Shown here: positions 8,621-22,574 of the stretch, one piece after another
Position numbering within the stretch: the stretch's first letter is position 1
How the letters are laid out: every line of letters starts with the position of its first letter
Source of the DNA: Candidatus Thiodiazotropha sp. 'RUGA'
GTDB lineage: Bacteria > Pseudomonadota > Gammaproteobacteria > Chromatiales > Chromatiaceae
Length of the DNA stretch: 51,757 bases
Direction of reading: 5' to 3'
Assembly: GCA_016842065.1 (NCBI GenBank)
Contig: JAEPDS010000028.1
Span: 1 to 51,757 of the forward strand
Translations under genes and position numbers: made by a program
Notes under the pieces: model-generated
Databases searched by the model: none
The model's input: only the letters and a program-made list of their open reading frames with translations
Told to the model about the DNA's origin: nothing

Positions 8621-10204
8621 CTAGCCGTTGAGCTGTCTGACCAGAACCTCCAGCTCTTTCGCGGTATCTTCCAATCCGACTGCGGCATTCGATGACTGCT
8701 GTGCAACCTGGGCTGTCTGACCGGAGATTCCATTGATATTGTTAATGTTGTGTGAGATCTCATCGACGACTGCATGCTGTTGCTCTACTGCACTGGCGAT
8801 ACTGACATTGAGCTCAGTCACACTGATGACCGACTCCTGAATCAGATCAAGCTCGGTGCGCAGTTTGGAGATCTTCTCTACCACCTGCTGCATTTGCTCC
8901 CGATTACCGGTCATGTCACTACGAACCCTGCTTATATCACCATCAAGTTTACCGAGCAGGGATTTGATGTTTTTGGTTGACTCTTTCGTCTGATTTGCCA
9001 GCAATCGCACCTGATCGGCGACCACCGCAAAACCACGGCCATGCTGGCCGGCTCTCGCGGCCTCGATGGCGGCATTGAGTGCCAGCAGATTGGTCTGCTC
9101 AGAGATCTCATCAATGAATCGCAATACGCCGTCAACGGCGCGGAAATCCTCTGTCAACTGGTCGATGACCCGACCGATATGCTCTACCTGCCCATTCAGG
9201 TCATTGATCTCGTCGGTAGCGCTCTCAAGGGCCTGACTACCCTCTTTGACCTGGGTTCTGGTGTCCTGGGTCTTTTCCGCTGTGGTGTTGGCGTTGCGCG
9301 CAATCTCTTCGATGGTGGCATTCATCTCGGTGACGGCAGTGGCCACCTGTTCGACTTCCTCTTCCATCTGCTTCACGTTGCCGAGACTCTGTTCAGCTGC
9401 GCTGGTCGAGAAGGTAGCCGCCTGCATCAGGTATTGGGCAAAATGTTGAAGCCGCCCCACCACGGTATTGAGCTTCGACTGCTGCATCAGAAGTGAATGC
9501 TCCACTGTGGATGCCTCCTGTCCCCTGCCGGAATAGACAAATTCCATCAGATCGTTGTCAGCGTAGAACTTGGCGGTTTTTCGCAGAGTGGCGAGGGGGC
9601 GCGTCGCCAGATGGGCGATGAGGAAAGCCAATGGCAGTCCGGCGATGAGGGCCAGCAAACCGTATAGAGGCGACAGCTGTCCGCTGAGGATTCCTGCCCC
9701 AATCCCTGTCAGAATCATGGCGGACATGATAACAAACGCGAGGTGGGCATAGTTGAAGCGAAACTGCAGCCTACCCAGCAGGCCAAGTCCGCCCTTTTTC
9801 TTATTGACGAGACGGTAGAGTTTGTCAGCCCGTTCCACCTGCTCCCGGGTGGGCGCATACCTGACCGACTGATAACCGCTAAGGTGCTCTCCCTCATAGA
9901 CCGGGGAGACATAGGCGTGTACCCAGTAGAAGTCGCCGTTCTTACAGCGGTTTTTTACCACTCCGATCCAGGGTTTGCCCGCCTGCAGAGTCTGCCACAG
10001 ATTTTCGAAAGCCAACGGGGGCATATCGGGATGACGCACGATGTTGTGACTGCTGCCGACAAGCTCTTCGCGGCTGAAGCCGCTGATGCGTATAAACACG
10101 TCGTTGACAGAGGTGATCATGCCCTTGAGATCGGTAGTGGATATGATTCGCTCATCCTGCCCGTAAGTAACTTCTCTATCGGTGACCGGGAGGTTGGTTT
10201 TCAT
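8621..10204 (-). CDS. methyl-accepting chemotaxis protein with N-terminal PAS (Aer-like)
   Basis: A 527-aa chemoreceptor. Residues about 15-115 form a PAS domain of the aerotaxis-receptor type; the signature [17 protein letters not shown] and the [13 protein letters not shown] strand match Aer, which binds FAD and senses redox state. Two hydrophobic segments (about 140-185) anchor it in the inner membrane with essentially no periplasmic domain, followed by a HAMP-like linker. The signalling tip [21 protein letters not shown] contacts CheA and CheW. A longer frame runs back to 10336, but the ATG at 10204 is preferred because GAGGAG precedes it by 8 bases. It probably steers swimming by electron-acceptor or energy state. 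No che genes are in the window. Confidence 0.93.
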
Positions 10205-10278
10205 ATTATAAGCTCCTCGTCGGTGCTCCCAGCAGCATTGGGTAACACTCCTGTCCTTAGGGGCTACAAGGGAAAAAG

Positions 10279-10289
10279 GTGCCAGGCAC
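10279..10289. repeat. REP-like palindrome GTGCCAGGCAC
   Basis: A perfect 5+1+5 palindrome within AAAGGTGCCAGGCACTTTG, located 75 bases before the chemoreceptor start. Similar GTGCC-N-GGCAC motifs are common intergenic repeats in Proteobacteria and are sometimes linked to REP-associated transposases. Only one copy is seen here, so assignment rests on recall. Confidence 0.35.
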
Positions 10290-10480
10290 TTTGCATTAGA
10301 GAGTGCAGATACAAATAGTATAGGTGAATGAGGCAATATCTTGAGGGCGGGTATGGCAGTAATGTCGCAGCGTTTATGGGGGCGACTGTTTCAATGTTGC
10401 TGAACACTTCGTCAATGCAAATAAATAGGAATTGCCTTCCCCTGCAAACAGCATAGGGAGACAGTTCTGATACCTCATGC

Positions 10481-11443
10481 TTATCCGGACGCTGCAGTCT
10501 CAAGCAGGTAGATACCGAACAAGCCCTCTTCCGCCAGCCAGTGGCGTACCTTAACCAGGCCGGCTTTTGATGCCAGGTCAAGGAACTCCTGCGGTTCGTA
10601 TTTATAGGAGTTTTCCGTATGCACCGACTCACCCTGCTCAAATTCAAAGCAACATCCGTTCAGGTGCAATAACTGATCCCGCTTGCTGACAAGGTGCATC
10701 TCGATACGTCCGGCTGCGGCGTTATAAAAAGCATGGTGATCGAACGATCTGGGATCGACCTTGATATCGAGTTCATCTCGCATGCGATGCAACAGGTTTT
10801 TATTAAACTCCGCAGTCACACCCGCCGCGTCATTATATGCAGCATTCAGTACGCACTCGGATTTCTTGGTATCCAAGCCGATCAGCAGCATGCCCTCTTC
10901 GCCCAGTATCTCGCGCACCAGTTTGAGAAATGCTTGCGCTTCAGTCTTATCAAAATTACCCAGACTCGAGCCCGGAAAAAATACCAACCTCGGGCTATCC
11001 GGCACCTCATCCGGCAGCGGAAGGGAATGAGAATAATCCACACAAGCAGCATGCACCGGCAGCCATGGGTATTCAGCTGCCAGTTGCGTGGCCACGCTTT
11101 TGAGGTAATCAAAAGAGATGTCCATGGGCACAAAAGCCGAAGGCTTCAGATCACCCAGTAACAGGCGCACTTTGGCGCCACTGCCAACTCCAGGCTCGAT
11201 CAGCAGTCGATTCTGCCCGGTCAATGAAGCGATCTCGGCGGACAATTCCGATAGCATCTTGCGCTCAACCGATGGCGGATAATACTCGGGCTGTTCACAG
11301 ATCCGGTCAAAAAGCTCGGAACCACGTTCATCATAAAAAAACTTCGGCGGTATGCTTTTATTCTCCTGCGACAGACCTTCGACGATGGCATCCAGGAAAC
11401 TCAAGGCCGGCTGCTTGTGATCATGAAAGGTGACATTCTGCAT
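10481..11443 (-). CDS. egtD: L-histidine N-alpha-methyltransferase EgtD
   Basis: A 320-aa SAM-dependent enzyme that trimethylates histidine to hercynine, the first step of ergothioneine synthesis. Family signatures are FFYDERGSELFDRICEQPEYY near residue 35, the SAM-binding loop LIEPGVGSGAK, and FFPGSSLGNF followed by the acidic DTKK segment. A longer frame starts at 11482, but the ATG at 11443 overlaps the egtB stop (TGATG) and has GGAGG upstream, so translation is coupled to EgtB. It is the last gene of the minus-strand run. EgtA, EgtC and EgtE genes are not in this window. Confidence 0.95.
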   Translation of the reverse strand: MQNVTFHDHKQPALSFLDAIVEGLSQENKSIPPKFFYDERGSELFDRICEQPEYYPPSVERKMLSELSAEIASLTGQNRLLIEPGVGSGAKVRLLLGDLKPSAFVPMDISFDYLKSVATQLAAEYPWLPVHAACVDYSHSLPLPDEVPDSPRLVFFPGSSLGNFDKTEAQAFLKLVREILGEEGMLLIGLDTKKSECVLNAAYNDAAGVTAEFNKNLLHRMRDELDIKVDPRSFDHHAFYNAAAGRIEMHLVSKRDQLLHLNGCCFEFEQGESVHTENSYKYEPQEFLDLASKAGLVKVRHWLAEEGLFGIYLLETAASG

Positions 11444-12708
11444 CAGACATCCTCCGCCAGGCGCAAGCCGGTAAAGGCCCATCGTTCATTCGGGTAGAAA
11501 AAATTACGGTAAGTCGCGCGGGTGTGCCCTGCGGGTGTCGCGGCGCTGCCGCCACGCAACACCATCTGGTTGGACATGAACTTGCCGTTGTACTCACCCA
11601 TGGAGCCCTCCAGAGGCTTGAATCCTGGATACGCCGTGTAGGGTGACGAGGTCCAGGCCCAAAGGTCGCCGAACCATTGGCCTTGTTCTGATGCCGGTAC
11701 CGGATGTAAAAAATCAGAGTCGGTAAAGTTACCTGTAACCGGCTTCAACGACAGCGCCAGTTCCAGTTCCGCTTCGAGTGGAAGGCGTTTGCCCGCCCAC
11801 CGCGCATAGGCATCGGCTTCAAAATAGGAGAGGTGACAAACCGGCTCATGCTCATTGAGCTCACGCAAGCCAGCCAAAGTGAACTGTTGCCAGCCATCTT
11901 CGCCTTGTAGCCAATAGAGGGGGTGCGTCCAGTTTTCGTCTTTAATCAAAGCCCATCCATCCGACAGCCATAACGCCACATCGTCGTATCCCCCATCCCT
12001 GATAAATTCAAGGTATTCGCCATTGGTGACAAAGCGGTCGGCCAAGAGATAGCCCCTTAGCAAGACCTGATGGCGCGGCGTTTCGTTATCATAGGCGAAC
12101 CCCTCACCGGCAAAACCGATCTCATGAATACCGCCGGTCTGTTCCAGCCAGCGCACAGGGCGGCTCTGGCCCTGAGGTATTTTCAGATCGTTGCGGTAAG
12201 CCGGCTTGATCGGATTGACCGAGAAATTGTGTTTAACATCCATGAGCAGCAATTCCTGGTGCTGTTGTTCATGGTTCAAGCCAAGGGTCACACGAAAAGA
12301 CAGCTCCTCACAGCGGGCGTCATCAATGTTCTGCATCAACTGCACCATTTGCTCATCCACATAGGCGCGGTAGTCATAAATCTCAGCCACGCTGGGCCTT
12401 GAAAGCAGTCCGCGGTTTGGTCGCGGATGCATCTGACCGTGCGTGTAGTAGTAGCTGTTGAATAGAAAATCCATGACCGGGTTGAAGGGTGTGTAAGCCG
12501 GATCAAAATGCGGCAAAACAAAAGCCTCATAAAACCAGGTAACATGGGCAATATGCCACTTGGGTGGACTGGTCTGCACAATGGACTGGATCTGATAGTC
12601 ATCCGTCTGCAACGGACGACACAAAGCTTCAGTGTATGCCCGCACTTCGAGGAAGCGGTTGATCAACTTCTCGCGTGCAGGGATCTCTTTGTCTACGGCT
12701 ACTTGCAT
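11443..12708 (-). CDS. egtB: hercynine oxygenase / ergothioneine synthase EgtB
   Basis: A 421-aa non-haem iron sulfoxide synthase. It couples oxygen, hercynine and a thiol donor (gamma-glutamylcysteine or cysteine). The N-terminal DinB-like domain has the iron-ligand histidine in WHIAHVTWFYE (about residue 50) and the HxxxHxE motif in NHEQQHQELLLMD. The C-terminal FGE-sulfatase domain ends with GGSAATPAGH and WAFTGLRLAE as expected. The ATG at 12708 is chosen over 12723 because GGAG sits just ahead of it. It overlaps egtD by one base. The thiol donor cannot be predicted from these features alone. Confidence 0.95.
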   Translation of the reverse strand: MQVAVDKEIPAREKLINRFLEVRAYTEALCRPLQTDDYQIQSIVQTSPPKWHIAHVTWFYEAFVLPHFDPAYTPFNPVMDFLFNSYYYTHGQMHPRPNRGLLSRPSVAEIYDYRAYVDEQMVQLMQNIDDARCEELSFRVTLGLNHEQQHQELLLMDVKHNFSVNPIKPAYRNDLKIPQGQSRPVRWLEQTGGIHEIGFAGEGFAYDNETPRHQVLLRGYLLADRFVTNGEYLEFIRDGGYDDVALWLSDGWALIKDENWTHPLYWLQGEDGWQQFTLAGLRELNEHEPVCHLSYFEADAYARWAGKRLPLEAELELALSLKPVTGNFTDSDFLHPVPASEQGQWFGDLWAWTSSPYTAYPGFKPLEGSMGEYNGKFMSNQMVLRGGSAATPAGHTRATYRNFFYPNERWAFTGLRLAEDV

Positions 12709-12727
12709 GTCGACTCCTAACACAAAC

Positions 12728-13555
12728 TTACTTCATCAGCGCTGCGCCATGGCCCTGCACCAGTTGCAGGAACTCAAGCAACATTGCCTGCGGATCGTTC
12801 GCTTCCAGCAACCTGGCATATGGCAGAATCGCCCCGACCCAACCTTCGCTATGCCAATAGGCCCCTTGTGGCAATGGCAGAACAGACCAGTTATCGGGCA
12901 TGGGATAAGCCGTGACATAAAAATAAGCTTCATCAATTGAAGCATCGCCGCTGACGAAACCAAAGTTCATCTGCTCATCCGCATTCTCCTCGTCGGCCGG
13001 GTCCACGCCGGGCACCAATCTGCCGGAAAACCAGTTCATCGCAATGTCGAGGTGATGGGGAAACAGTTGCACCGGACTGGTTTCCTGGCGCAAACCACCT
13101 TTGAAAGTCCTGAACGCCACATCAATCCAACATAGGGCACGGCGAAAATCATCCGCAGCATCCGCATCATAAGTCAGCACGCTATCATCATCAAAAGCGC
13201 TCAGCGGCTGCTCATCGAGATCGATACCCTGAGTGGCGAGCAGTTGTGTGATCTGCTGTCGCATTCCGGCGGCACTGTTTCCCTTGAGGGGAATGCTGCA
13301 ATTCCATCCGCTATCACTGCAAATCGATAACTGATGTGAAGTCAGATCGAGTTGCATCTCCAGATTCCGGCCATTTACTGGAAAAGGTGTCGTTGTCAGG
13401 CCATGTGTATTCACTGTCAGGGTGATATGCCACCAATGTTTTGCCTTGGGCATATAAAAACCGCGTATCTTGCCCATGATGCGGGCATACTGATGAATGG
13501 CATCACGGGTTGGTAGCCAGTCCACGAGATTTAAAGAGGGCAGAGTTACTGACAC
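12728..13555 (-). CDS. DUF5996 family protein
   Basis: A 275-aa soluble protein that I assign to the DUF5996 family from its overall pattern: an N-terminal segment with HQYARIMGKIR and KHWWHITLTVN, a central predicted beta region, and a C-terminal stretch with PMPDNWSVLPLPQGAYWH. No function is established for the family. It starts with GTG at 13555, with GGAG 7 bases upstream. The egtB start follows its stop by 19 bases, so it is the first gene of the ergothioneine unit and may take part in that pathway or its use. Confidence 0.75.
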   Translation of the reverse strand: MSVTLPSLNLVDWLPTRDAIHQYARIMGKIRGFYMPKAKHWWHITLTVNTHGLTTTPFPVNGRNLEMQLDLTSHQLSICSDSGWNCSIPLKGNSAAGMRQQITQLLATQGIDLDEQPLSAFDDDSVLTYDADAADDFRRALCWIDVAFRTFKGGLRQETSPVQLFPHHLDIAMNWFSGRLVPGVDPADEENADEQMNFGFVSGDASIDEAYFYVTAYPMPDNWSVLPLPQGAYWHSEGWVGAILPYARLLEANDPQAMLLEFLQLVQGHGAALMK

Positions 13556-13608
13556 GGTAAACTCCTTTTTTATGATTGATGATTGGGTATTTTCTAAGCA
13601 ATGCAGAC

Positions 13609-13633
13609 AAAAATTAAGCGCTGACTGCAGCGC
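13609..13633 (-). terminator. terminator-like hairpin inside the end of the small ORF
   Basis: Read on the minus strand, GCGCTG-CAGT-CAGCGC (6-bp stem, 4-base loop) is followed by TTAATTTTT. The stop codon TAA of the 51-residue gene lies in this tail. It could end most transcripts from the Rieske gene block while allowing some read-through into DUF5996-egtB-egtD. Confidence 0.5.
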
Positions 13634-13769
13634 GTCTACGTGAATCCTCTTGGGTGAAATCTATTTTGAAATACTGTTGGGCACAAAGCGTTGCCATGGA
13701 AAGAGCCATGAGCATCGGGACTGAAATAAACAGTTTGGGGAGTAACCAAAATCCAATCATCCCGATCAC
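13614..13769 (-). CDS. small membrane protein, 51 aa
   Basis: A short gene starting with GTG at 13769 that overlaps the antiporter stop in the arrangement GTGA. GGAGG, inside the antiporter 3' end, lies eight bases before it. The product has a hydrophobic N-terminal segment of about 28 residues (MIGMIGFWLLPKLFIS and onward) followed by a charged tail with the acidic-basic stretch TQEDSRRR, so it should be a single-pass inner-membrane protein with a cytoplasmic C terminus. The coupling and the signal-anchor composition make it believable. It may be an accessory subunit or regulator of the antiporter. No family is recognised. Confidence 0.6.
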   Translation of the reverse strand: MIGMIGFWLLPKLFISVPMLMALSMATLCAQQYFKIDFTQEDSRRRAAVSA

Positions 13770-15064
13770 GAATTATCCTCCATTTCCTTGAAGCTGGAGG
13801 ATAGTCGCAATGGCATCGCCTCAACACTGGCCTGTTCCGATGAAATGTCATCACCGCGACGCTGGCAGACTTTCAACACCCTGGCATACAGGCTCACCCC
13901 CGGCAATGCCGACAGTCCATGCAGAATGATGCTGAAAAACACCGTGACAATCACCGTATCGAATACCAACGTCTGATTCAGCAGTTGAGCATGCTCCAGC
14001 ACCAACAGGACAAACAGAATCGATGCCAGACCACGCGGCCCGAACCAGCCCAAAAAAAGTCCGGTCTCCCAACGCAGGTGTTTACCCAGCAACGAGACAA
14101 ACACCGGCAGCATGCGGATCAACGTCAGGCTTAACAGGGCGTAAACCACCATTTCGCCACTGATGCGTGGCCAGACCTGCGGCAGCAGGGCCACACCGAA
14201 CAGGAAGAAGATCACCAGGTTCAATAACTGGCCTTCGGATTCGGCAAATTCGTAAATCTCCTCATTGACATGCTTGAGCGTATTGCCGGTCGCCACACCG
14301 GCGACAAAGGCGGCGATAAAACCATTGCCGCCGACCAGGTCTGCCGCCAGGTAGGCAATAAACGTCATGCTCAGCAGATAGATATTGCAAAATTCATGGG
14401 TGAGAAAGCGTTTTTCAATCGCCATGTTGATGGCTTTGGAACCCGACCAGCCAACAAGTGCGCCTACCAGTGGTCCCAGCGTGATTTGCAGTAAGACAAA
14501 ATTCAGCCAGTCGGTTTCTTCTCCACCACCATGACTGCCGACAGCAAATGAAATCACAAACAGCAGGGCTGGCAAGGCAATGCCGTCATTCAGGCCGCTT
14601 TCCACATTAAGGGTCTGACGTATGCGTTGCGGCACTTTGGGACTGCTGACGACCGCCTGCCCCAAAGCCGCATCGGTCGGCGCCAGGATGACCGCCAGCA
14701 CCAATGCCTCGAGCAACAGCAGTTGCGGCATCACGGCCAGTGCCAAAGCCGTACCCAGACCGATGGTCAGAGGCATGCCGACCAGCAGCAGGCGCATAGG
14801 CACGTCATGATCCGACCACAGGCGCTTGAGTTTGATGCGTGCTGCATCGGTAAACAAAACCAGAATCAGCGTGATCTCGGCAATGGTGTGAATCACCGCA
14901 TTGTCCAGTCCGAGGTTGATCCAACCCAGCGCAATCGGACTGAGCAGCAGGCCAAGGGCGGTAAAGGTCATCGGCGGCGTCAGACTGCCGCGACTGATCG
15001 GCCCGGAAAAGAGTGCGAACAAGGCAATGCCGAGCAGCACCAGTAACAGGCTGGCTTCATTCAT
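13766..15064 (-). CDS. cation:proton antiporter (CPA1/NhaP type)
   Basis: A 432-aa integral membrane protein with about 12 hydrophobic segments. The CPA1 signatures VLAPTDAALGQAVV and ESGLNDGIALP (about residues 125-165) carry the conserved Asp and Asn-Asp residues used for cation/proton exchange. It should exchange Na+ or K+ for protons at the inner membrane. Its ATG lies 3 bases after the stop of the Rieske/ThDP gene, so it is in the same operon. The final codons overlap the small membrane gene. Its place in a redox-enzyme operon suggests ion or pH balance linked to that activity, which is inference. Confidence 0.9.
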   Translation of the reverse strand: MNEASLLLVLLGIALFALFSGPISRGSLTPPMTFTALGLLLSPIALGWINLGLDNAVIHTIAEITLILVLFTDAARIKLKRLWSDHDVPMRLLLVGMPLTIGLGTALALAVMPQLLLLEALVLAVILAPTDAALGQAVVSSPKVPQRIRQTLNVESGLNDGIALPALLFVISFAVGSHGGGEETDWLNFVLLQITLGPLVGALVGWSGSKAINMAIEKRFLTHEFCNIYLLSMTFIAYLAADLVGGNGFIAAFVAGVATGNTLKHVNEEIYEFAESEGQLLNLVIFFLFGVALLPQVWPRISGEMVVYALLSLTLIRMLPVFVSLLGKHLRWETGLFLGWFGPRGLASILFVLLVLEHAQLLNQTLVFDTVIVTVFFSIILHGLSALPGVSLYARVLKVCQRRGDDISSEQASVEAMPLRLSSSFKEMEDNS

Positions 15065-15067
15065 GGC

Positions 15068-17032
15068 TCAGACCAGTTCCGCATCGGTCAACACTTCCAC
15101 CAGGGCCGGTCCCGGGTGGTCCAGTGCTTCTTTGAGCGCGCCTTCCAGATCGGCGGCATCGGTCACGCGTAAGCCTTTGGCGCCGCAAAGTTGCGCATAC
15201 TCGGCAAAGTTGGGGTTGTGCAGGCTGGTCTGCCAGACCTCCCAGTTACCGGCGCGTTGCTCCTTGCTGATCTTGCCCAGCTCACCGTTATTCATGAGCA
15301 CATGAGTGATGTTCATGCCGTATTTGACTGCAGTGTTGATCTCCGCCAGATACTGACCAAAACCGCCGTCGCCAGAGACCGAAATAACCTGGCGGCCATT
15401 GAAGCGCGGATCATCTTCCTGGGTCGCGGCCCAGGCACCCATGGCCGCCGGGAAGGAGAAACCGATGGAGCCGAGATAACCCGACATCAGTACTGTATGA
15501 TCTTCACACTCGAAATAACGACCGAACGCGTAAGTGTTGTTGCCAACATCCACGGCAATGATGGCATCGCTGTCGGCACTCCTGGCGAGCTTATCAAACA
15601 GGATGGCGGAATTGATGCCTTTACCACGGTCATCCAGGGTGCGGCGCTGTTTCTCCTCGCGCCAGATGGCCCAGCGTGTGGCGACATCGTCTGTCTGCTC
15701 CTCGCTACCGCTATAACCGGCCAGCGCCTCAGACAACAGCCTGGCGGTCACACCAATCTCACCCCACACCGGCACATCGATGGCATGGAACTTGGCCAGT
15801 GTCATGAGATCGTAATCCACCTGGATGGTCGGACGTTTTTGCGTGATGCCGGTATGGTTGGAAAAACTCGCACCAAACACCAGCAGGCTGTCGGATTCAT
15901 TCATCAGCCAGCTCGCAATCGGTGTACCGCTGCGGCCCAGCACGCCACCGGCCAGCGGATGAGTGTCGGCGATCTGACCCTTGCCTTTGAAAGTTGTGAT
16001 GACCGGCGCCTTGAGCTGTTCGGCCAGGGCAATCACGGCATCCATCTGGAAACGCGCGCCATGTCCGGCCACAATGACCGGCCTTTTACTGTTGGACAAC
16101 AGCTCCACCGCAGCCTGCAGGGCATCGGCCGGTGGTGAGATTTCGCGTGAAGGCAAACGACCTTCGGGTGTACCGGCCGCTGGCGGGTTGTCCAGTTCAC
16201 GCTTGGGCACTTCATCGGGGAAAATCAGGTGCGACACGCCGCTGTTGAGAATGGCGCTTTTACAGGCCAGGTTCATCAGTTCAGTATGTTTGCTGTCATG
16301 CATAACCGTTTGTGACCACTGCGCCACGCTACCGAATGCCCCCACCTGGTCAATCTCCTGGAACGCGCCCGGGCCCAGCACCTGGGTCTCGACCTGGCCG
16401 GTCAACGCCAGTGCCGGAGCGCGATCCACATTGGCATCCCACAGTCCGGTGAGTAAATTGGTGGCCCCTGGACCGGCAATTGCCAGACAGGCAGCTGGAC
16501 GGCCGGTCAGTTTGCCATAGGCCGAACAGGCAAATGCGGCAGCGCCTTCGTGGCGGATACCGTAATAACTCAGGCGGCCGGCCTTCTCCTGGATGCGCAG
16601 GGCATCGGCCACACCCAGATTGGAATGGCCCACCATACCGAACACCTGCTTGACGCCCCAGTTGGTCATGGTTTCCATCATCAGATCGCCAACGGTACCG
16701 ATGTGGGTCTCTTCAGGCGCCAGACCGACATAGATGCCGTCGTCGCGAATTTCCACCGGAAAGGTTTCCACACCATCGTCAAAACCCGGCGCCTTGCCCG
16801 TGACCGGATGATAATCCCAGCCGTGCCAGGGACAGCGTAGTAGACCGTTTTCGATGCTACCCTCACCCAGCGGGCCACCCTGGTGCGGACATTTATTGTC
16901 AAGCGCGCCGTATTGCCCTTCGTGGTGACTCATGCATAGGGTTTTTTTCTTGCAGGTGACCGATGTGACCCGGCCTTCCGGCAATTCGTCCTTGTTCAGC
17001 ACCTTGTGCCAAACGAGTTCTTGATCCGCCAT
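15068..17032 (-). CDS. Rieske domain fused to thiamine-diphosphate enzyme
   Basis: A 654-aa fusion. Residues about 5-105 are a Rieske [2Fe-2S] domain with ligands in CPHQG and CPWHGW. The remainder is a complete ThDP enzyme of the acetolactate synthase/pyruvate oxidase type: the catalytic glutamate in RHEGAAAFA, the segment AGPGATNLL, a central domain, and the Mg-ThDP motif GDGGF followed by NN about 30 residues later. Such enzymes decarboxylate or cleave 2-oxo acids; a fused Rieske centre suggests direct electron transfer instead of oxygen or flavin use. The ATG at 17032 is preferred (AAAGGAG upstream). It is 33 bases from the Rieske/GltS gene and 3 bases from the antiporter gene. The substrate is not known. 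Confidence 0.85.
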   Translation of the reverse strand: MADQELVWHKVLNKDELPEGRVTSVTCKKKTLCMSHHEGQYGALDNKCPHQGGPLGEGSIENGLLRCPWHGWDYHPVTGKAPGFDDGVETFPVEIRDDGIYVGLAPEETHIGTVGDLMMETMTNWGVKQVFGMVGHSNLGVADALRIQEKAGRLSYYGIRHEGAAAFACSAYGKLTGRPAACLAIAGPGATNLLTGLWDANVDRAPALALTGQVETQVLGPGAFQEIDQVGAFGSVAQWSQTVMHDSKHTELMNLACKSAILNSGVSHLIFPDEVPKRELDNPPAAGTPEGRLPSREISPPADALQAAVELLSNSKRPVIVAGHGARFQMDAVIALAEQLKAPVITTFKGKGQIADTHPLAGGVLGRSGTPIASWLMNESDSLLVFGASFSNHTGITQKRPTIQVDYDLMTLAKFHAIDVPVWGEIGVTARLLSEALAGYSGSEEQTDDVATRWAIWREEKQRRTLDDRGKGINSAILFDKLARSADSDAIIAVDVGNNTYAFGRYFECEDHTVLMSGYLGSIGFSFPAAMGAWAATQEDDPRFNGRQVISVSGDGGFGQYLAEINTAVKYGMNITHVLMNNGELGKISKEQRAGNWEVWQTSLHNPNFAEYAQLCGAKGLRVTDAADLEGALKEALDHPGPALVEVLTDAELV

Positions 17033-17065
17033 CTGTTTTGCTCCTTTGGTTGTTTTTTCCAATCG

Positions 17066-18685
17066 TCAGTCCAGCTTCACACCCGCGTATTCAATGCCGG
17101 TCAGATGCGCCATCTCCCGGTCAAACGTGCTCAGGTCATCAATACAGAACTTATTCAGATGATCATGGCCGCAGGCGCGTGCCATCACCTGCATGAGCTC
17201 GGTTGAAGCGCGGAAAAAATTATTCAGTTGCTTGGCCCCTTTTTCGATCTTGAGCCGTTTGCGCAACTCCGGTTTCTGCGTGGCGATACCGACCGGACAG
17301 TTGTTGGTATGGCAGGCGCGCATACCCAGACAGCCAATCGCCTGAATCGCCGAGTTGGACACGGCAATGGCGTCCGCTCCCAAAGCCATGGCCTTGATGA
17401 AGTCTGCCGGCAGGCGCAGGCCACCGGTAATCACCAGTGACACATCGTTACGGCCTTTTTTGTCCAGATAACGGCGCGCACGTGCCAGCGCTGGAATGGT
17501 CGGCACGGAAATATTGTCACGAAAAATCAATGGCGCGGCCCCTGTGCCGCCGCCACGTCCATCCAGAATGATGTAGTCCACACCGATCTGCAGTGCCGCT
17601 TCGATATCACGTTCAATGTGCTGGGCCGACAGTTTCACGCCAATGGGAATGCCGCCGGTACTTTCCCGCACTTGCGCAGCGAAACGGCGGTATTCGTCGA
17701 TGTTGTCCCAGTCGGGAAAACGCGCCGGAGAAATCGCAGACTCACCTTCGTTGAGACCACGCACTTCGGCAATCTTGCCCTTGACCTTGTTACCGGGCAG
17801 ATGTCCACCGGTACCGGTTTTGGCGCCCTGGCCACATTTGAAATGGAACGCCTGGCACTGTTTGACCTTATCCATGGAGTAACCGAAACGTGCCGAGGCC
17901 AGTTCATACAGATAGTGGCTGTTGGCCTGTTGCTCGTCGGGCAGCATGCCGCCTTCGCCGGAACAGATACCGGTACCGGCCATTTCAGCCCCCATCGCCA
18001 AAGCCACCTTGGCCTCTTCCGACAGGGCGCCGAAACTCATGTCCGATACAAACAAGGGCCGATCCAGTTTCAGCGGTTTTTCCGCATTCGGACCGATAAT
18101 GACTTCAGTGCCGACCGGATCGTCATCGAGCATCGGCACCTTGTGCAGTTGCGCGGTGAGGATCTGAATCTCCTCCCACTTCGGCAACAGGTCGCGCGGT
18201 ACCCCCATGGCAGCGACACGGCCGTGATGACCGACCTTGGAAAGGCCGTGTTCGGCCAGATGCTGGATGTATTTGGTATGCGGTTCTTCTGGCGCGCCGT
18301 GAATATCCTGATAGAGTCCCTGGTAGGCGTCGCGGTTGTATGGCTGCGGATTGGTTTGCGTCCATTCGCGGATTTCGTCTTCATCCACCCAGACCTGGCC
18401 GGCTTCGACCCAGGCATTGAAGCGGTGCAGTTTTTCCGATGGGTTGTAAGAGCTGACCCCGGTTTTGTATTCATAGTCCCAGTCATGCAGACCACAGACA
18501 ATATTGCTACCTTCGATTCGGCCGTCCGACATCAGTGCACCACGGTGCGCACATCGGCCATAGAGTACTGAGACCTGCTCCTCATCAGGCCAGCGTACGA
18601 TCACCAGATCCACATCGGCCACCAAGGCATAAGCTGGTTTCTCCAGCTCCAGTTCAGACCACTGGGCAATTGGGATTTTGTTCAT
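17066..18685 (-). CDS. Rieske domain fused to FMN-binding glutamate-synthase-type domain
   Basis: A 539-aa fusion. The N-terminal 100 residues are a Rieske-type ferredoxin with ligands in CAHRG and CGLHDW. Residues about 150-520 match the central FMN domain of glutamate synthase: SDMSFGALSEEA, the glycine-rich ILDGRGGGTGAAP, and the cluster motif CLGMRACHTNNC (C-x5-C-x4-C), which in GltS binds a 3Fe-4S centre. No amidotransferase or FAD/NADPH domain is present, so it resembles stand-alone GltS-like proteins (GlxD/MgsC type) whose partner supplies nitrogen or electrons. It is the first gene of the minus-strand operon, divergent from an AraC regulator. Confidence 0.87.
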   Translation of the reverse strand: MNKIPIAQWSELELEKPAYALVADVDLVIVRWPDEEQVSVLYGRCAHRGALMSDGRIEGSNIVCGLHDWDYEYKTGVSSYNPSEKLHRFNAWVEAGQVWVDEDEIREWTQTNPQPYNRDAYQGLYQDIHGAPEEPHTKYIQHLAEHGLSKVGHHGRVAAMGVPRDLLPKWEEIQILTAQLHKVPMLDDDPVGTEVIIGPNAEKPLKLDRPLFVSDMSFGALSEEAKVALAMGAEMAGTGICSGEGGMLPDEQQANSHYLYELASARFGYSMDKVKQCQAFHFKCGQGAKTGTGGHLPGNKVKGKIAEVRGLNEGESAISPARFPDWDNIDEYRRFAAQVRESTGGIPIGVKLSAQHIERDIEAALQIGVDYIILDGRGGGTGAAPLIFRDNISVPTIPALARARRYLDKKGRNDVSLVITGGLRLPADFIKAMALGADAIAVSNSAIQAIGCLGMRACHTNNCPVGIATQKPELRKRLKIEKGAKQLNNFFRASTELMQVMARACGHDHLNKFCIDDLSTFDREMAHLTGIEYAGVKLD

Positions 18686-18906
18686 GTAAAGGTCCTCTTT
18701 TTATGAATTATTAACGCAGATACAACGTAATACGTAATAGGCGTGGAAATGGTTTTTTATTTTTGACTCTATAGTGAAGCCATCAATTGATTATTATAGA
18801 TAGGATCTTAGGTTGGCTTTATATGATATATTCTCAGTGGCAATTTCTACAGAAAATATCGATACCCATCGTTCACGTTATTTAACCAACCGTACATTTA
18901 ATCAAT
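18686..18906. promoter_or_regulatory. divergent promoter region with ACGTAAT tandem repeat
   Basis: This 221-base AT-rich space separates the Rieske/GltS gene (minus) from the AraC-type gene (plus). It holds a perfect tandem pair ACGTAATACGTAAT at 18725-18738, 40 bases upstream of the minus-strand start. Tandem direct half-sites are typical of AraC-family binding, so this is a candidate operator. No confident -35/-10 boxes were assigned. Confidence 0.45.
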
Positions 18907-19881
18907 ATGGAAATGCATGATCCCAATAACGACATCAAAGATGATGCATTGACTCACTTTCTGACCAGAACACACCTGCAGGCACGAATTTTCATGCACC
19001 GCAGCTATTGCGAAGAGTGGGCCATCGATATTGCGGGTACCGGACAGGTTCCCTTCTATCTGGTCGACAATGGTCAGGCATGGATACACATGGATGGCAT
19101 GGAACCCAGGTTAATCCAGGCAGGTGATCTGGTCATGTTTCCGCGTGATTCTCACCATGTACTTGCCAACAGTCGGAAACCACAGGACAGGGAAAACGTC
19201 AACCAACCAAAGGATTGTGTAAAACAGGAAAACTTGACCAGCGTTTTATGCGGCTTCTATGAATTTGACTCGGACACCGCTCAGTTGCTGTTAAATGATA
19301 TGCCCGATATCGTTCAGCTGAGTGATGCCCGCAATAATCCAACCACTGACGGCATCGCCCATATCCTGGACACAATCCTGATTGAACTGAAGAACAACAA
19401 TCCTGGACGCAGTATCGCACTGCGTGACCTGGCGCGCCTGCTGTTGCTGCACTTACTGCGCAACTGCTTTTCTGCCAATCTGTCACAGGGTTACCTCAAG
19501 GCATTGATCACACCGCAAATTGGCCACGCCCTGCAATTGATCCACACTCGATTCAATGAGGAGTGGACCCTGGATGAGCTAGCCCGCACAATTGGTATGA
19601 GCCGTACAGCCTTCGCCCAGAAGTTTCATGAATACGTGGGAATACCGCCAGCCAAATACCTGACCACATGGCGCATGCAGGAAGCCACCAACCTACTGAA
19701 AAACACCACGCTCAGTATCGAGAAAATTGCCGAGAAATGTGGCTACCAATCAGCCGCCTCGTTCAGAAAAGCCTATAAAAGTTTCACGGGGGATACACCC
19801 CGGCATATCCGCAACAGAAGCCGGGATTCATTGATCAATCGGGCCCGAAGGAAAATCCTGAGCTCCGCCTCCCCCAATTAA
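18907..19881 (+). CDS. AraC family transcriptional regulator with cupin sensor
   Basis: A 324-aa regulator. The N-terminal half (about 1-130) is a cupin-like ligand pocket with DLVMFPRDSHHVL, as in the AraC cupin-6 group. The C-terminal 100 residues are the double helix-turn-helix domain: DELARTIGMSRTAFAQKFHE, then IEKIAEKCGYQSAASFRKAYK. The family usually activates neighbouring genes in response to a small molecule or stress. Being divergent from the Rieske operon, it probably controls that operon. A ligand cannot be deduced. Confidence 0.92.
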   Translation: MEMHDPNNDIKDDALTHFLTRTHLQARIFMHRSYCEEWAIDIAGTGQVPFYLVDNGQAWIHMDGMEPRLIQAGDLVMFPRDSHHVLANSRKPQDRENVNQPKDCVKQENLTSVLCGFYEFDSDTAQLLLNDMPDIVQLSDARNNPTTDGIAHILDTILIELKNNNPGRSIALRDLARLLLLHLLRNCFSANLSQGYLKALITPQIGHALQLIHTRFNEEWTLDELARTIGMSRTAFAQKFHEYVGIPPAKYLTTWRMQEATNLLKNTTLSIEKIAEKCGYQSAASFRKAYKSFTGDTPRHIRNRSRDSLINRARRKILSSASPN

Positions 19882-20357
19882 ATCAGCAATGCTGTTCCAT
19901 TCAGGCTGCATATCCAGTAAGACATGCCCAGCAGGATCACACACCAAGTGGTCACCTATAACTTCGCCCCCCGATAGTCACAACCTCATGGGAGATATCA
20001 CTAGAACCCACCTCACGTGGCGCTACTAATGCAATTGGCGTTTTAGGTACAGATACCATCGGGTGTTAACACTCCCACCTTGGGTGGGTCAAACCTAAAC
20101 GAAACCCTCTTCTTATCCGTAGTTTAACCTAAGATTGGCTAACCGCCCTGCAGACATCTCACTTTTTAGCCAGAATCCGACTTTTTCCATAGAAACAGTT
20201 AGTTATAAAAATATCGAAAAGATAACTCAGAAGCTGATTATTGACCTGAAGCAACTCCCCCTGAAAACAAACAGCACCGTCTGAAAATTCTGATAGTCTT
20301 AAATACATAAACAGTGATCCATTCTTTATTATAAACAATTGCTGGAGGGAGATGGGC
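19882..20357. other. intergenic region with GC hairpin
   Basis: About 475 bases without a gene. A perfect 6-bp hairpin CCCACC-TTG-GGTGGG lies at 20074-20088, with no T-tract; it could be a stability or regulatory structure. The promoter of the following signalling operon should be in the AT-rich last 150 bases. Confidence 0.4.
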
Positions 20358-21530
20358 ATGGCTGATAAAAAACCGCCAAAACCTGAGGTACCGAATGAAA
20401 CCATCTACCGCTGGCACAAAACAGTCGATCTTGCATTAGCAAAAATGCATACGCCTGTCGCTGTCATTACACAGAAACAGGATGACACCTTCACCATCTT
20501 TTATACACATGTCACCGATGAAAATCCGTTTAAAACAGGTGACCGGATCACACTTGAGGGGAGTTTCACCGACTGGGTAATCAAAAATGATTCTGCATTG
20601 CATGTCAAAGACGCCTCACAGGATGATAAATGGAAGTCACACCGCCTGATTGACAAGGGGCTAGTATATTACCTGGGTTATCCAGTGCACTGGCCAGATG
20701 GCGAAATCTTCGGAACCATCGCTGTTTATGATCACAGGGCCAATGAACAAGCGGATAAACACCAGGATCTACTGGCCGAATTCTGTCATGAAATAGAGCA
20801 GGACCTACTGATACTGGTGCAGCAACAAGCACTGAAGATCGAAATCGAGCATAGGAAGCTGGCAGAAAACAGACTATCCAGTTTAACACCCAAGGAATTT
20901 CATGCGCTCTGGCATGCTGCGCAATCCGTGCTCGCTAATCGGAGCTTTGAGGTCTCGGCGCGCATTATCTTTGATGAAGCCTGTAATATGACTGGGGCGG
21001 TTTCCGGTTATGTGGCACTGTTGACAGATGATGGTAAAGAAAACGATGTGCTGTTTCTGGATTCTGGGGGTCTCTCCTGCGCAGTAGACCCGAGTCTACC
21101 CATGCCGATCCGCGGCCTGAGAGCCAATGCCTATAAATCAGGCAAGGCGGTGTATGACAATGATTTCATGAATACAGACTGGGTCAAGTACATGCCGGAG
21201 GGACATGTGGTATTGAAAAATGTACTGTTTGCACCCCTCAATATCAAAGGTAAAACAGTCGGCATCATGGGTCTTGCAAACAAGGATGGTGATTTTACCG
21301 GTTTTGATGCATCCGTTGCAGAAGCATTTGGAGAAATAGCCGCAATTGCCCTGAGTAATTCGAGGACCCTGGATCAACTGGATGAAAACAACAGGAAACT
21401 GGAGAGTTTCAATGAGACCCTGGTTGACAGAGAGTACAGAATTATCGAAATCAAGCAGGAAGTCAATGAACTATGCAGAGAACTGGGACGCGAACCCGTT
21501 TACAAAGACATAGCAAAACACGCGCAGTAG
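20358..21530 (+). CDS. double GAF-domain sensor protein
   Basis: A 390-aa cytoplasmic protein with two GAF-like domains (about 15-155 and 185-335) and a C-terminal coiled segment ending DREYRIIEIKQEVNELCRELGR, a tail often seen after sensory domains that dimerise with kinases. It has no output domain. The ATG at 20358 is chosen because GGAGG lies 9 bases upstream; an ATG at 20352 is too close to it. The solute-binding lipoprotein gene starts 15 bases after its stop, so it opens a four-gene signalling operon. It may sense a small molecule or redox state and tune the kinase; this role is inferred from context. Confidence 0.85.
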   Translation: MADKKPPKPEVPNETIYRWHKTVDLALAKMHTPVAVITQKQDDTFTIFYTHVTDENPFKTGDRITLEGSFTDWVIKNDSALHVKDASQDDKWKSHRLIDKGLVYYLGYPVHWPDGEIFGTIAVYDHRANEQADKHQDLLAEFCHEIEQDLLILVQQQALKIEIEHRKLAENRLSSLTPKEFHALWHAAQSVLANRSFEVSARIIFDEACNMTGAVSGYVALLTDDGKENDVLFLDSGGLSCAVDPSLPMPIRGLRANAYKSGKAVYDNDFMNTDWVKYMPEGHVVLKNVLFAPLNIKGKTVGIMGLANKDGDFTGFDASVAEAFGEIAAIALSNSRTLDQLDENNRKLESFNETLVDREYRIIEIKQEVNELCRELGREPVYKDIAKHAQ

Positions 21531-21545
21531 CCAGAGTATCTGTCG

Positions 21546-22574
21546 ATGAAAGAATTCAAATATATCTGGGTATGCCGCGCAGCAAACAGTGTCATATTGA
21601 TCGCTGCATTGTCTGTGTTATTGATAGCCTGTGACGGTAAACCAGAACAACATGAGGAAAAGGAGATAGAGTCTGTACGGGTTGCCCTAGCGATGCAGCC
21701 TGGCAGCGCTCTGGTTATGGTTGCCGAGAACCAAGGCTTTTTCAAACAAAACGGACTCAGGCTGGATCTATCAGAACATCCCAGCGGTAAACGAGCCCTA
21801 CATGATAGTTTTTTTGCTGACAAGAGCGATATTGTTATCTCTGCTGATGTGCCTGTGGCTTTGGCATCTTTTTCTGAAAATCCATTTGTTATCCTCGGTT
21901 CCATATTTTCCGCAAACAATATCAACCGCCTGATTGCGAGGACCGATGCCGGAATTAGCACTCCTGCCGACCTCAGAGGAAAGAAACTGGCGACCCAGAA
22001 GGCCTCGGCGGTACATTTTTTCCTACATCTGTTTTTAGTGGAACATGGGATATATGAAAGAGACCTGAGTCTCTCTTTTTTCAAGGCGGAGCAATTGCCT
22101 GACAAGCTTGCCTCTGGAGCTGTCGATGCCTTTTCGATGCGCGAGCCCTATATCAGTCTGACCAAAGATAAACTGCCGGGCGGCTATATAGTATTTGAGG
22201 AACCTGGACTCTACCAGCAACGGGACGTGGTTGTATCAAGCCGTGAATTCGTTTCAAACCACCCTTCAGTAGTAAGGCGATTTTTCAAGAGTCTTTTGCA
22301 GGCCGAGGAATACGTGCAAAACAATCCGAGAACTGCAATAAATATTATTTCGGAACGTTTGGGAGCTCCACCCTCTTCTCTTGAAACTAACTGGCCAGAA
22401 ATCAGCATGGAGGTCTCACTAGATCAGTCCATGCTGCTAGTACTTGAAGATATTTCCCGTTGGGCAATTCATGGGGGACTTGTGGAAGAGCGCACCCTGC
22501 CAGACTTTCTCACAAGAATTCATGGGCAGGTGTTGAACGAGATAGCACCAGAAGCAGTGACAATTATCCAGTAG
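21546..22574 (+). CDS. ABC-type solute-binding lipoprotein (NMT1/SsuA-like)
   Basis: A 342-aa lipoprotein with lipobox LLIAC (Cys29). The mature part has the NMT1/SsuA/TauA binding-protein pattern: GSALVMVAENQGFFKQNGL, then a DIVISADVPVALA segment and DLRGKKLATQKASAV. Family members bind sulfonates, nitrate, thiamine precursors or similar ligands. No permease or ATPase gene is adjacent. Instead a membrane-bound hybrid kinase gene follows after 7 bases, so this protein is more likely a ligand sensor for the kinase than an importer subunit. The ligand is unknown. Confidence 0.88.
   Translation: MKEFKYIWVCRAANSVILIAALSVLLIACDGKPEQHEEKEIESVRVALAMQPGSALVMVAENQGFFKQNGLRLDLSEHPSGKRALHDSFFADKSDIVISADVPVALASFSENPFVILGSIFSANNINRLIARTDAGISTPADLRGKKLATQKASAVHFFLHLFLVEHGIYERDLSLSFFKAEQLPDKLASGAVDAFSMREPYISLTKDKLPGGYIVFEEPGLYQQRDVVVSSREFVSNHPSVVRRFFKSLLQAEEYVQNNPRTAINIISERLGAPPSSLETNWPEISMEVSLDQSMLLVLEDISRWAIHGGLVEERTLPDFLTRIHGQVLNEIAPEAVTIIQ

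Follow-up and report, generated by a model that had tools for sequence, protein, structure and literature searches.

The window analysed here, a contig of 51,757 nucleotides from the clam symbiont Candidatus Thiodiazotropha sp. 'RUGA' (JAEPDS010000028.1; genome size 4.77 Mb), carries two adjacent minus-strand genes that each encode an enzyme with an N-terminal Rieske [2Fe-2S] domain. In the protein that we refer to as GLT, this domain is fused to a glutamate-synthase-type core with flavin mononucleotide (FMN) and [3Fe-4S] sites; in the one that we refer to as TPP, it is fused to a pyruvate-oxidase-type thiamine diphosphate (ThDP) enzyme. Both architectures and their cluster ligands are conserved, the two genes are repeatedly linked, and in some relatives of GLT the Rieske domain is exchanged for other electron-transfer modules. 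We propose that the pair belongs to a redox operon that is mobile and modular: TPP would oxidize a 2-oxo acid and GLT would carry out glutamate/2-oxoglutarate chemistry, both being connected through their fused one-electron modules to a shared partner and not to NAD(P)H. This reading is tentative, and we assign it a probability of roughly 0.4.

Two adjacent enzymes with fused Rieske domains

GLT matches the Pfam models Rieske (45.9 bits; cut-off 20.3) and Glu_synthase (323 bits), and a whole-genome search placed the Rieske domain above cut-off at the N-terminal end of the protein (18434-18679), in a stretch free of stop codons. The cluster ligands C45, H47, C64 and H67 are invariant in 71/71 homologues, as are C452, C458 and C463, which align to the [3Fe-4S] cysteines of solved glutamate synthase (GltS). 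Also kept in 71/71 are K289 and R309, the equivalents of K972 and R992 of Synechocystis GltS (numbered along the chain), which, together with Q978, we take to be 2-oxoglutarate contacts. All of these homologues cover at least 85% of the query, a threshold that excludes Rieske-less forms; a CDGSH motif occurs in 0/71 sequences of this set, and the window protein itself matches PF00355 (Rieske) and not PF09360. With GltB and the large chain of ferredoxin-dependent GltS, GLT shares the FMN barrel core, the cysteine triad and the K972 and R992 equivalents, but it differs from them in that no glutamine amidotransferase domain was found in its 539 residues (Pfam gives only Rieske, Glu_synthase and FMN_dh), a histidine replaces Gln978, and the Rieske domain would serve as electron port.

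TPP matches the Rieske model at 59.0 bits and all three TPP_enzyme domains at 104-122 bits, and its Rieske domain (16790-17011) was likewise recovered N-terminally, above cut-off and stop-free, in the whole-genome search. Translation probably starts at ATG 17032, giving 654 amino acids, and not at TTG 17062, because AGGAG lies directly upstream of the former. The Rieske ligands C58, H60, C77 and H80 are invariant in 106/106 homologues, and so are E172, F234, Q235 and D565-G-G, which align to ThDP-binding and catalytic positions of PoxB. Eighty of the 106 came from a scan with two peptide patterns that themselves contain the Rieske ligands; in the 26 found without patterns, ligands and catalytic residues are equally invariant. 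A chance or mis-called fusion is ruled out by the continuous reading frames and by the invariance of the ligands across phyla, the pattern-free TPP sequences included. Both fusions and their adjacency had been proposed in the first-pass annotation of this DNA, which worked from the letters alone, and are borne out here.

The AlphaFold model of TPP (predicted local distance difference test, pLDDT, 89.7) has E. coli PoxB as its top Foldseek match, and the best NCBIfam and PDB-sequence matches are pyruvate oxidases as well. Of the 25 top-ranking NCBIfam models listed, none reaches its cut-off. The model aligns to PoxB residues 2-531, sequence and model ending at PoxB 528-531 of about 571-572 residues, and the C-terminus lies 11 residues past the last GP[ASV] in 99/99 sequences having this motif (of 106). 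This end point and the constant 11-residue tail indicate that the membrane tail of PoxB is missing. TPP resembles E. coli PoxB and C. glutamicum pyruvate:quinone oxidoreductase (PQO) in its ThDP fold, catalytic glutamate, and FQE and GDG regions, but differs from both in its fused Rieske domain, the lack of a C-terminal membrane tail and an invariant lysine in place of F465.

Distribution and genomic linkage

At least 570 stretches in genome_contigs encode TPP relatives (570 of the 590 pattern matches listed do), and the best 80 of these were used as the locus set. Both scan patterns lie within the Rieske domain, so that TPP forms without this domain are undetectable by the scan. Record titles assign the relatives to haloarchaea and to about 15 phyla of bacteria, for the most part as metagenome bins, some of them perhaps misbinned. 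TPP is found on four haloarchaeal plasmids (63-65% identity) and on a Mycobacteroides plasmid (54%); a GLT homologue lies near TPP both in Halorarius, there together with an antiporter, and in Salinirubellus. The earlier description as rare holds for TPP, which is encoded by 5 genomes in a phylum sample of 398 (its own included), but its relatives are spread widely.

The GLT core occurs in 43 of the 398 genomes (1e-100), with the Rieske end visible in 12/43, and all five TPP-positive genomes are among these 12. In a second sample, taken from another family of the phylum, which groups with the alphaproteobacterium Hellea in the GLT tree, 16/295 genomes encode TPP. TPP matches begin at residue 18 or earlier in 5/5 and 16/16 genomes of the two samples, the Rieske part thus being included. 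Close relatives of the GLT core are present in 66 of the 80 TPP genomes (1e-80; 36/40 and 30/40): sixty have the Rieske end, three are cut fragments without that end (G467, G470, G495), two carry CDGSH (G463, G511) and one is a distant relative only (G501). The pair, with Rieske ligands supported in both proteins, therefore recurs well beyond this genus. Among 22 genomes of the same genus, 13 encode TPP and 20 a full GLT. Where GLT and TPP share a locus, their pairwise distances are correlated (r = 0.68, 52 loci; maximum of 1000 permutations 0.14), although weakly so when distant pairs alone are considered (r = 0.28). As a side observation, one locus (L124) encodes Rieske-GLT and no TPP in the stretch, and its next gene begins, by eye, like a peptide methionine sulfoxide reductase.

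Neighbours were counted in the 45 TPP loci that have 4 kb or more of sequence on each side; these loci are not independent of each other. GLT lies within the stretch in 22, DUF5996 in 19, an antiporter in 8 and malic enzyme in 7, and GLT and TPP are at most 170 bp apart in 11 of the 22 loci with both. DUF5996, a family that no publication we found names, is a recurrent operon partner, near TPP in 28/80 loci and often between GLT and TPP. The malic enzyme was seen in 7/80 loci, several from related Bacteroidota. Pfam domains among 140 neighbours (of 149 listed) comprised Na_H_Exchanger (8), Ferric_reduct (8), Rieske (7), malic enzyme (6), DUF427 (4), carbonic anhydrase (3) and DUF2721 (3). In three Nitrospirales bins (L035, L037, L039) a eukaryotic-type carbonic anhydrase follows TPP. 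L127, L128 and L130 have genes close to the operon that resemble, by eye, TRAP transporters and two-component systems; the latter genes were not used as partners.

A third Rieske fusion, a heme ferric-reductase membrane protein with the Rieske domain at its C-terminus, occurs in GLT/TPP operons elsewhere. Like MsrQ and other ferric reductase heme proteins, it has a Ferric_reduct transmembrane domain and conserved histidines; unlike them, it carries the C-terminal Rieske domain and is adjoined in most loci seen by a gene that we call C4 (L085:8833-9594, L092:8793-9590 and relatives). The C4 protein has a motif with conserved cysteines and a histidine (GEI-D-CY-G-M-P-H-CA-CI-GG-P; 22 aligned sequences), a single hydrophobic stretch near its N-terminal start as judged by eye, and no match in Pfam or NCBIfam. 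The ferric-reductase fusion and C4 are each found in 10 of the 45 loci, after subtraction of 3 cross-hits from 13 raw matches to the former. Since the raw count in the whole set, 18/80, includes cross-hits to the Rieske domain of TPP (L044, L058 and L069 among the 45), C4, with 13/80, was used instead. In the stretches fetched for the 16 TPP genomes of the second sample, GLT is present in 13, the ferric-reductase fusion with C4 in 8 and an antiporter in 5; a frequent order there is GLT, small membrane protein, ferric-reductase-Rieske, C4 and TPP, the antiporter coming first in some.

Rieske proteins of the high-potential bc type have extra disulfide cysteines in their cluster loops, whereas ferredoxin-type clusters lack them. 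No conserved disulfide cysteines were found in the Rieske loops of TPP, GLT or the ferric-reductase fusion, as expected for ferredoxin-type clusters. Spread of one common Rieske domain among the three enzymes is unsupported: in a tree of 42 domains they form three separate groups, that of TPP with a support of only 86/85, and long branches lie between the GLT and TPP groups.

Exchange of N-terminal modules

Close GLT relatives without a Rieske domain carry two CDGSH motifs instead (motif in 15/15; PF09360 in 3/3 scanned), on a core 65-72% identical to that of the window GLT. The 15 CDGSH forms make up a single clade with a support of 100/98, either next to the Rieske forms or nested among them; Rieske-GLT as a single clade is absent from the best tree, yet not rejected by the approximately unbiased (AU) test (p-AU 0.099). 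At L160:683-2140 (genome G221), a rubredoxin domain stands N-terminal to a more distant glutamate-synthase-type core, 46% identical. That one end of a single core can hold electron-transfer domains of unrelated kinds provides the best evidence for a role of these domains as wires.

CDGSH motifs are also found on proteins of the TPP kind. In an endosymbiont of Escarpia (L094), a CDGSH-GLT gene begins no more than about 20 bp from the end of a gene encoding a CDGSH2-Rieske-ThDP protein, the sole CDGSH carrier among the 106 TPP sequences. Such proteins were found in 7/57 genomes of the same family: a CDGSH-GLT adjoins in two (G511, G832), and a lone CDGSH protein lies nearby in a third (G817), whose GLT fragments are on other contigs, one of them with a Rieske end. 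Among the 15 CDGSH-GLT sequences of the tree, the 10 with fetched surroundings (L113-L122) have no ThDP partner and one (L156, the same locus as L094) adjoins the ThDP gene; G832, outside this set, is the second case of CDGSH-GLT beside CDGSH-ThDP. A same-genus genome (G018) has a CDGSH-form GLT as second copy (L159), with one in-frame stop in the matched stretch.

Proposed role and alternative explanations

Under the shared-partner proposal, TPP would oxidatively decarboxylate a 2-oxo acid on ThDP and flavin adenine dinucleotide (FAD), pyruvate being the default guess, and its Rieske cluster would draw off the electrons singly and so replace the membrane tail at the C-terminus of PoxB. GLT may convert 2-oxoglutarate or an imine to glutamate, or the reverse, by glutamate-synthase-core chemistry on FMN and [3Fe-4S], its Rieske cluster standing in for an NAD(P)H subunit or ferredoxin as the electron port. 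In many lineages the shared one-electron partner would plausibly be the co-encoded ferric-reductase-Rieske membrane protein; in Thiodiazotropha, where this protein was not found, another carrier might take its place, or TPP and GLT might be each other's partner. The antiporter may offset proton and cation changes, and the malic enzyme neighbours speak for the proposal because that enzyme is a source of pyruvate. A wider version, in which exchangeable Rieske, CDGSH and rubredoxin modules wire soluble enzymes of carbon and nitrogen metabolism to each other and to the heme membrane protein, 2-oxo-acid oxidation and glutamate chemistry thus having one NAD(P)H-independent electron pool in common, appears somewhat unlikely.

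Several observations weigh against the proposal. The Gln978 position of the 2-oxoglutarate site is occupied by H295 in 71/71 GLT sequences. K597 of TPP, invariant in 106/106, stands at F465 of PoxB, where an aromatic residue is presumably of functional importance, and many non-oxidase ThDP enzymes match the TPP model equally well, so that pyruvate oxidase is not singled out. GLT occurs without TPP in 7/22 same-genus genomes; conversely, no close GLT was found in 14/80 TPP genomes (many bins are incomplete) nor in 4/7 genomes with CDGSH2-Rieske-ThDP proteins, which implies that TPP does not depend on GLT. In 14 of the 45 TPP loci no named partner is nearby, and the ferric-reductase-Rieske fusion was found in 0/22 same-genus genomes, all 12 matches at 1e-15 being TPP Rieske domains.

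K597 makes pyruvate oxidation by TPP uncertain and a more anionic substrate possible. TPP might be a carboligase, or a decarboxylase of oxaloacetate, 2-oxoglutarate, hydroxypyruvate or a similar 2-oxo acid, as the good fit of non-oxidase enzymes and the lack of an NCBIfam match at cut-off among the 25 best would also allow. However, the best NCBIfam, PDB-sequence and Foldseek matches are pyruvate oxidases, a fused redox cluster would be hard to explain on a non-redox enzyme, and malic enzyme genes are among the neighbours; we consider such an activity quite unlikely. The first-pass annotation had read the adjacency of the genes as a sign of electron transfer between the two enzymes. In the direct form of this idea, TPP would hand electrons from 2-oxo-acid decarboxylation straight to the Rieske cluster of GLT, which would use them to turn 2-oxoglutarate and ammonia into glutamate with no need of NAD(P)H. 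Such coupling would account for the spacing within 170 bp in half of the two-gene loci, for Rieske-GLT in 5/5 TPP genomes of the phylum sample against 12/398 overall, and for CDGSH modules on both enzymes where these adjoin (G511, G832). The association of the genes and the module swaps thus bear this idea out in part, but each gene also occurs alone, indicating that each is able to use another partner, and the two Rieske domains fall into separate, long-branched groups. In our view, direct transfer is unlikely.

The same domains might be sensors and not wires, with pH- and redox-labile, His-ligated [2Fe-2S] clusters switching the enzymes on or off under oxidative, chlorine or pH stress. Both His-ligated cluster types, Rieske and CDGSH, are used, a pirin gene adjoins the L094 operon, and in the window an antiporter, downstream EgtB and EgtD, and a Cupin_6 AraC regulator, whose best NCBIfam model is RclR and whose cysteines lie close to RclR cysteines, would suit such a role. 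Yet this regulator scores far below the RclR cut-off, it and the Egt genes are rarely near TPP outside the genus (AraC in 1/80 and EgtB in 2/80 loci), and rubredoxin as a third module and the ferric-reductase fusion favour electron transfer, which leaves sensing decidedly improbable. Finally, the genes could be separately useful and merely co-travel by horizontal transfer, with no common electron path. Lineage-dependent partners, the loci without any, a patchy distribution and the haloarchaeal plasmids would agree with this, while the same pair in many phyla, an operon type that holds three distinct Rieske fusions and the correlated GLT/TPP distances (less so among distant pairs) argue against it; we regard it as highly improbable.

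Relation to described systems

Fusions of CDGSH with glutamate synthase have been listed for over a decade, by sequence and structure (PMC3174974, PMC5859297). The available text of Lin et al. (2011; PMC3174974) defines 'type 5 CISD' as tandem CDGSH plus a glutamate synthase FMN domain, and that of PMC5859297 mentions that CDGSH also occurs in bacterial proteins together with Glu_synthase and with Rieske_2; the corresponding parts of PMC12487129 treat the Rieske domain in general terms only. The GLT core is of the same subfamily as type 5 CISD and likewise has a His-ligated [2Fe-2S] module at the N-terminus, but the window GLT has a Rieske domain instead of two CDGSH motifs and adjoins a Rieske-ThDP gene. 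A full-text literature search turned up no title or abstract that deals with the Rieske pair or with its operon. Accordingly, the CDGSH-GLT fusion is known already, whereas we found no description of the Rieske-GLT/Rieske-ThDP pair and its operon, and the initial remark that no known pathway uses this gene set still holds after the search, apart from the published CDGSH counterpart of GLT.

A concrete and testable electron-transfer hypothesis for the class of CDGSH-glutamate-synthase fusions, and for the gene set found across many phyla and haloarchaea, follows from Rieske-GLT and its partner with ThDP, from the third Rieske fusion and from the two cases of CDGSH on both enzymes. If it is true, 2-oxo-acid oxidation and glutamate metabolism would run on a dedicated one-electron carrier; the wired-circuit version, if true, would give type 5 CDGSH proteins their first functional setting.

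Organization of the locus in Thiodiazotropha

The unit reads, on the minus strand from the AraC side, GLT, TPP, antiporter, a 51-residue open reading frame (ORF), DUF5996, EgtB and EgtD, the AraC gene being divergent; adjoining genes overlap or are 3-58 bp apart. A small membrane protein had been thought to complete it at 13614. That claim is not supported: the unit continues on the same strand into DUF5996, EgtB and EgtD (58-bp gap, 4-bp gap and overlap), and the ORF is 46% identical over 41 residues to a 137-residue protein at the same position in L034, whose counterpart in L150 is DUF2721. It looks truncated, because the match covers only the first 41 residues of this DUF2721-type protein. 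L034 and L150 have an identical order of AraC, GLT, TPP, antiporter, DUF2721, DUF5996, EgtB and EgtD; in the stretches L131 and L132, GLT is kept with EgtB and EgtD (in L131 also with DUF5996), and neither TPP nor an antiporter is present. An Rfam scan of 9000-22000 gave no match at gathering scores.

Table 1. Features of the GLT-TPP locus in the window
Feature	Position	Strand	Basis
GLT, Rieske [2Fe-2S] and glutamate-synthase-type FMN/[3Fe-4S] core, 539 amino acids	17066-18685	-	Pfam/NCBIfam, ligands, GltS alignment
TPP, Rieske and pyruvate-oxidase-type ThDP enzyme	15068-17062	-	Pfam, ligands, AlphaFold/Foldseek
CPA1-type cation/proton antiporter, 432 amino acids	13766-15064	-	Pfam Na_H_Exchanger
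51-amino-acid ORF overlapping the antiporter stop, apparently truncated DUF2721-type membrane protein	13614-13769	-	Likeness to L034 protein
DUF5996 protein	12728-13555	-	Pfam PF19459, 189 bits
EgtB, ergothioneine biosynthesis	11443-12723	-	NCBIfam TIGR03440, 547 bits (cut-off 360)
EgtD, L-histidine N-alpha-methyltransferase	10481-11482	-	NCBIfam TIGR03438, 361 bits (cut-off 291)
AraC-family regulator, Cupin_6 sensor domain and AraC helix-turn-helix (HTH), distant RclR relative	18907-19881	+	Pfam
CGATACCCATCG block, candidate operator	18860-18871		Conserved in genus intergenic regions

The antiporter and the divergent regulator had been assigned correctly at the outset. The former matches Na_H_Exchanger at 164 bits (cut-off 26), its best NCBIfam model being a K+/H+ antiporter at 147 bits, below the cut-off of 355. 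The regulator has the Cupin_6 and AraC HTH domains of E. coli RclR and C115 aligned with one RclR cysteine, but is only 28% identical to it, scores 101 bits against a cut-off of 400 with the RclR model, and has adjacent genes other than those of the rcl operon. The intergenic region between AraC and GLT holds, upstream of the AraC gene, the block CGATACCCATCG, a candidate operator judging from its conservation: it is kept with at most one change in 9/9 intergenic regions aligned from the genus, that of the window among them; these regions represent about 3 distinct lineages. When up to one mismatch is allowed, the block matches once in the window, against 0.19 expected.

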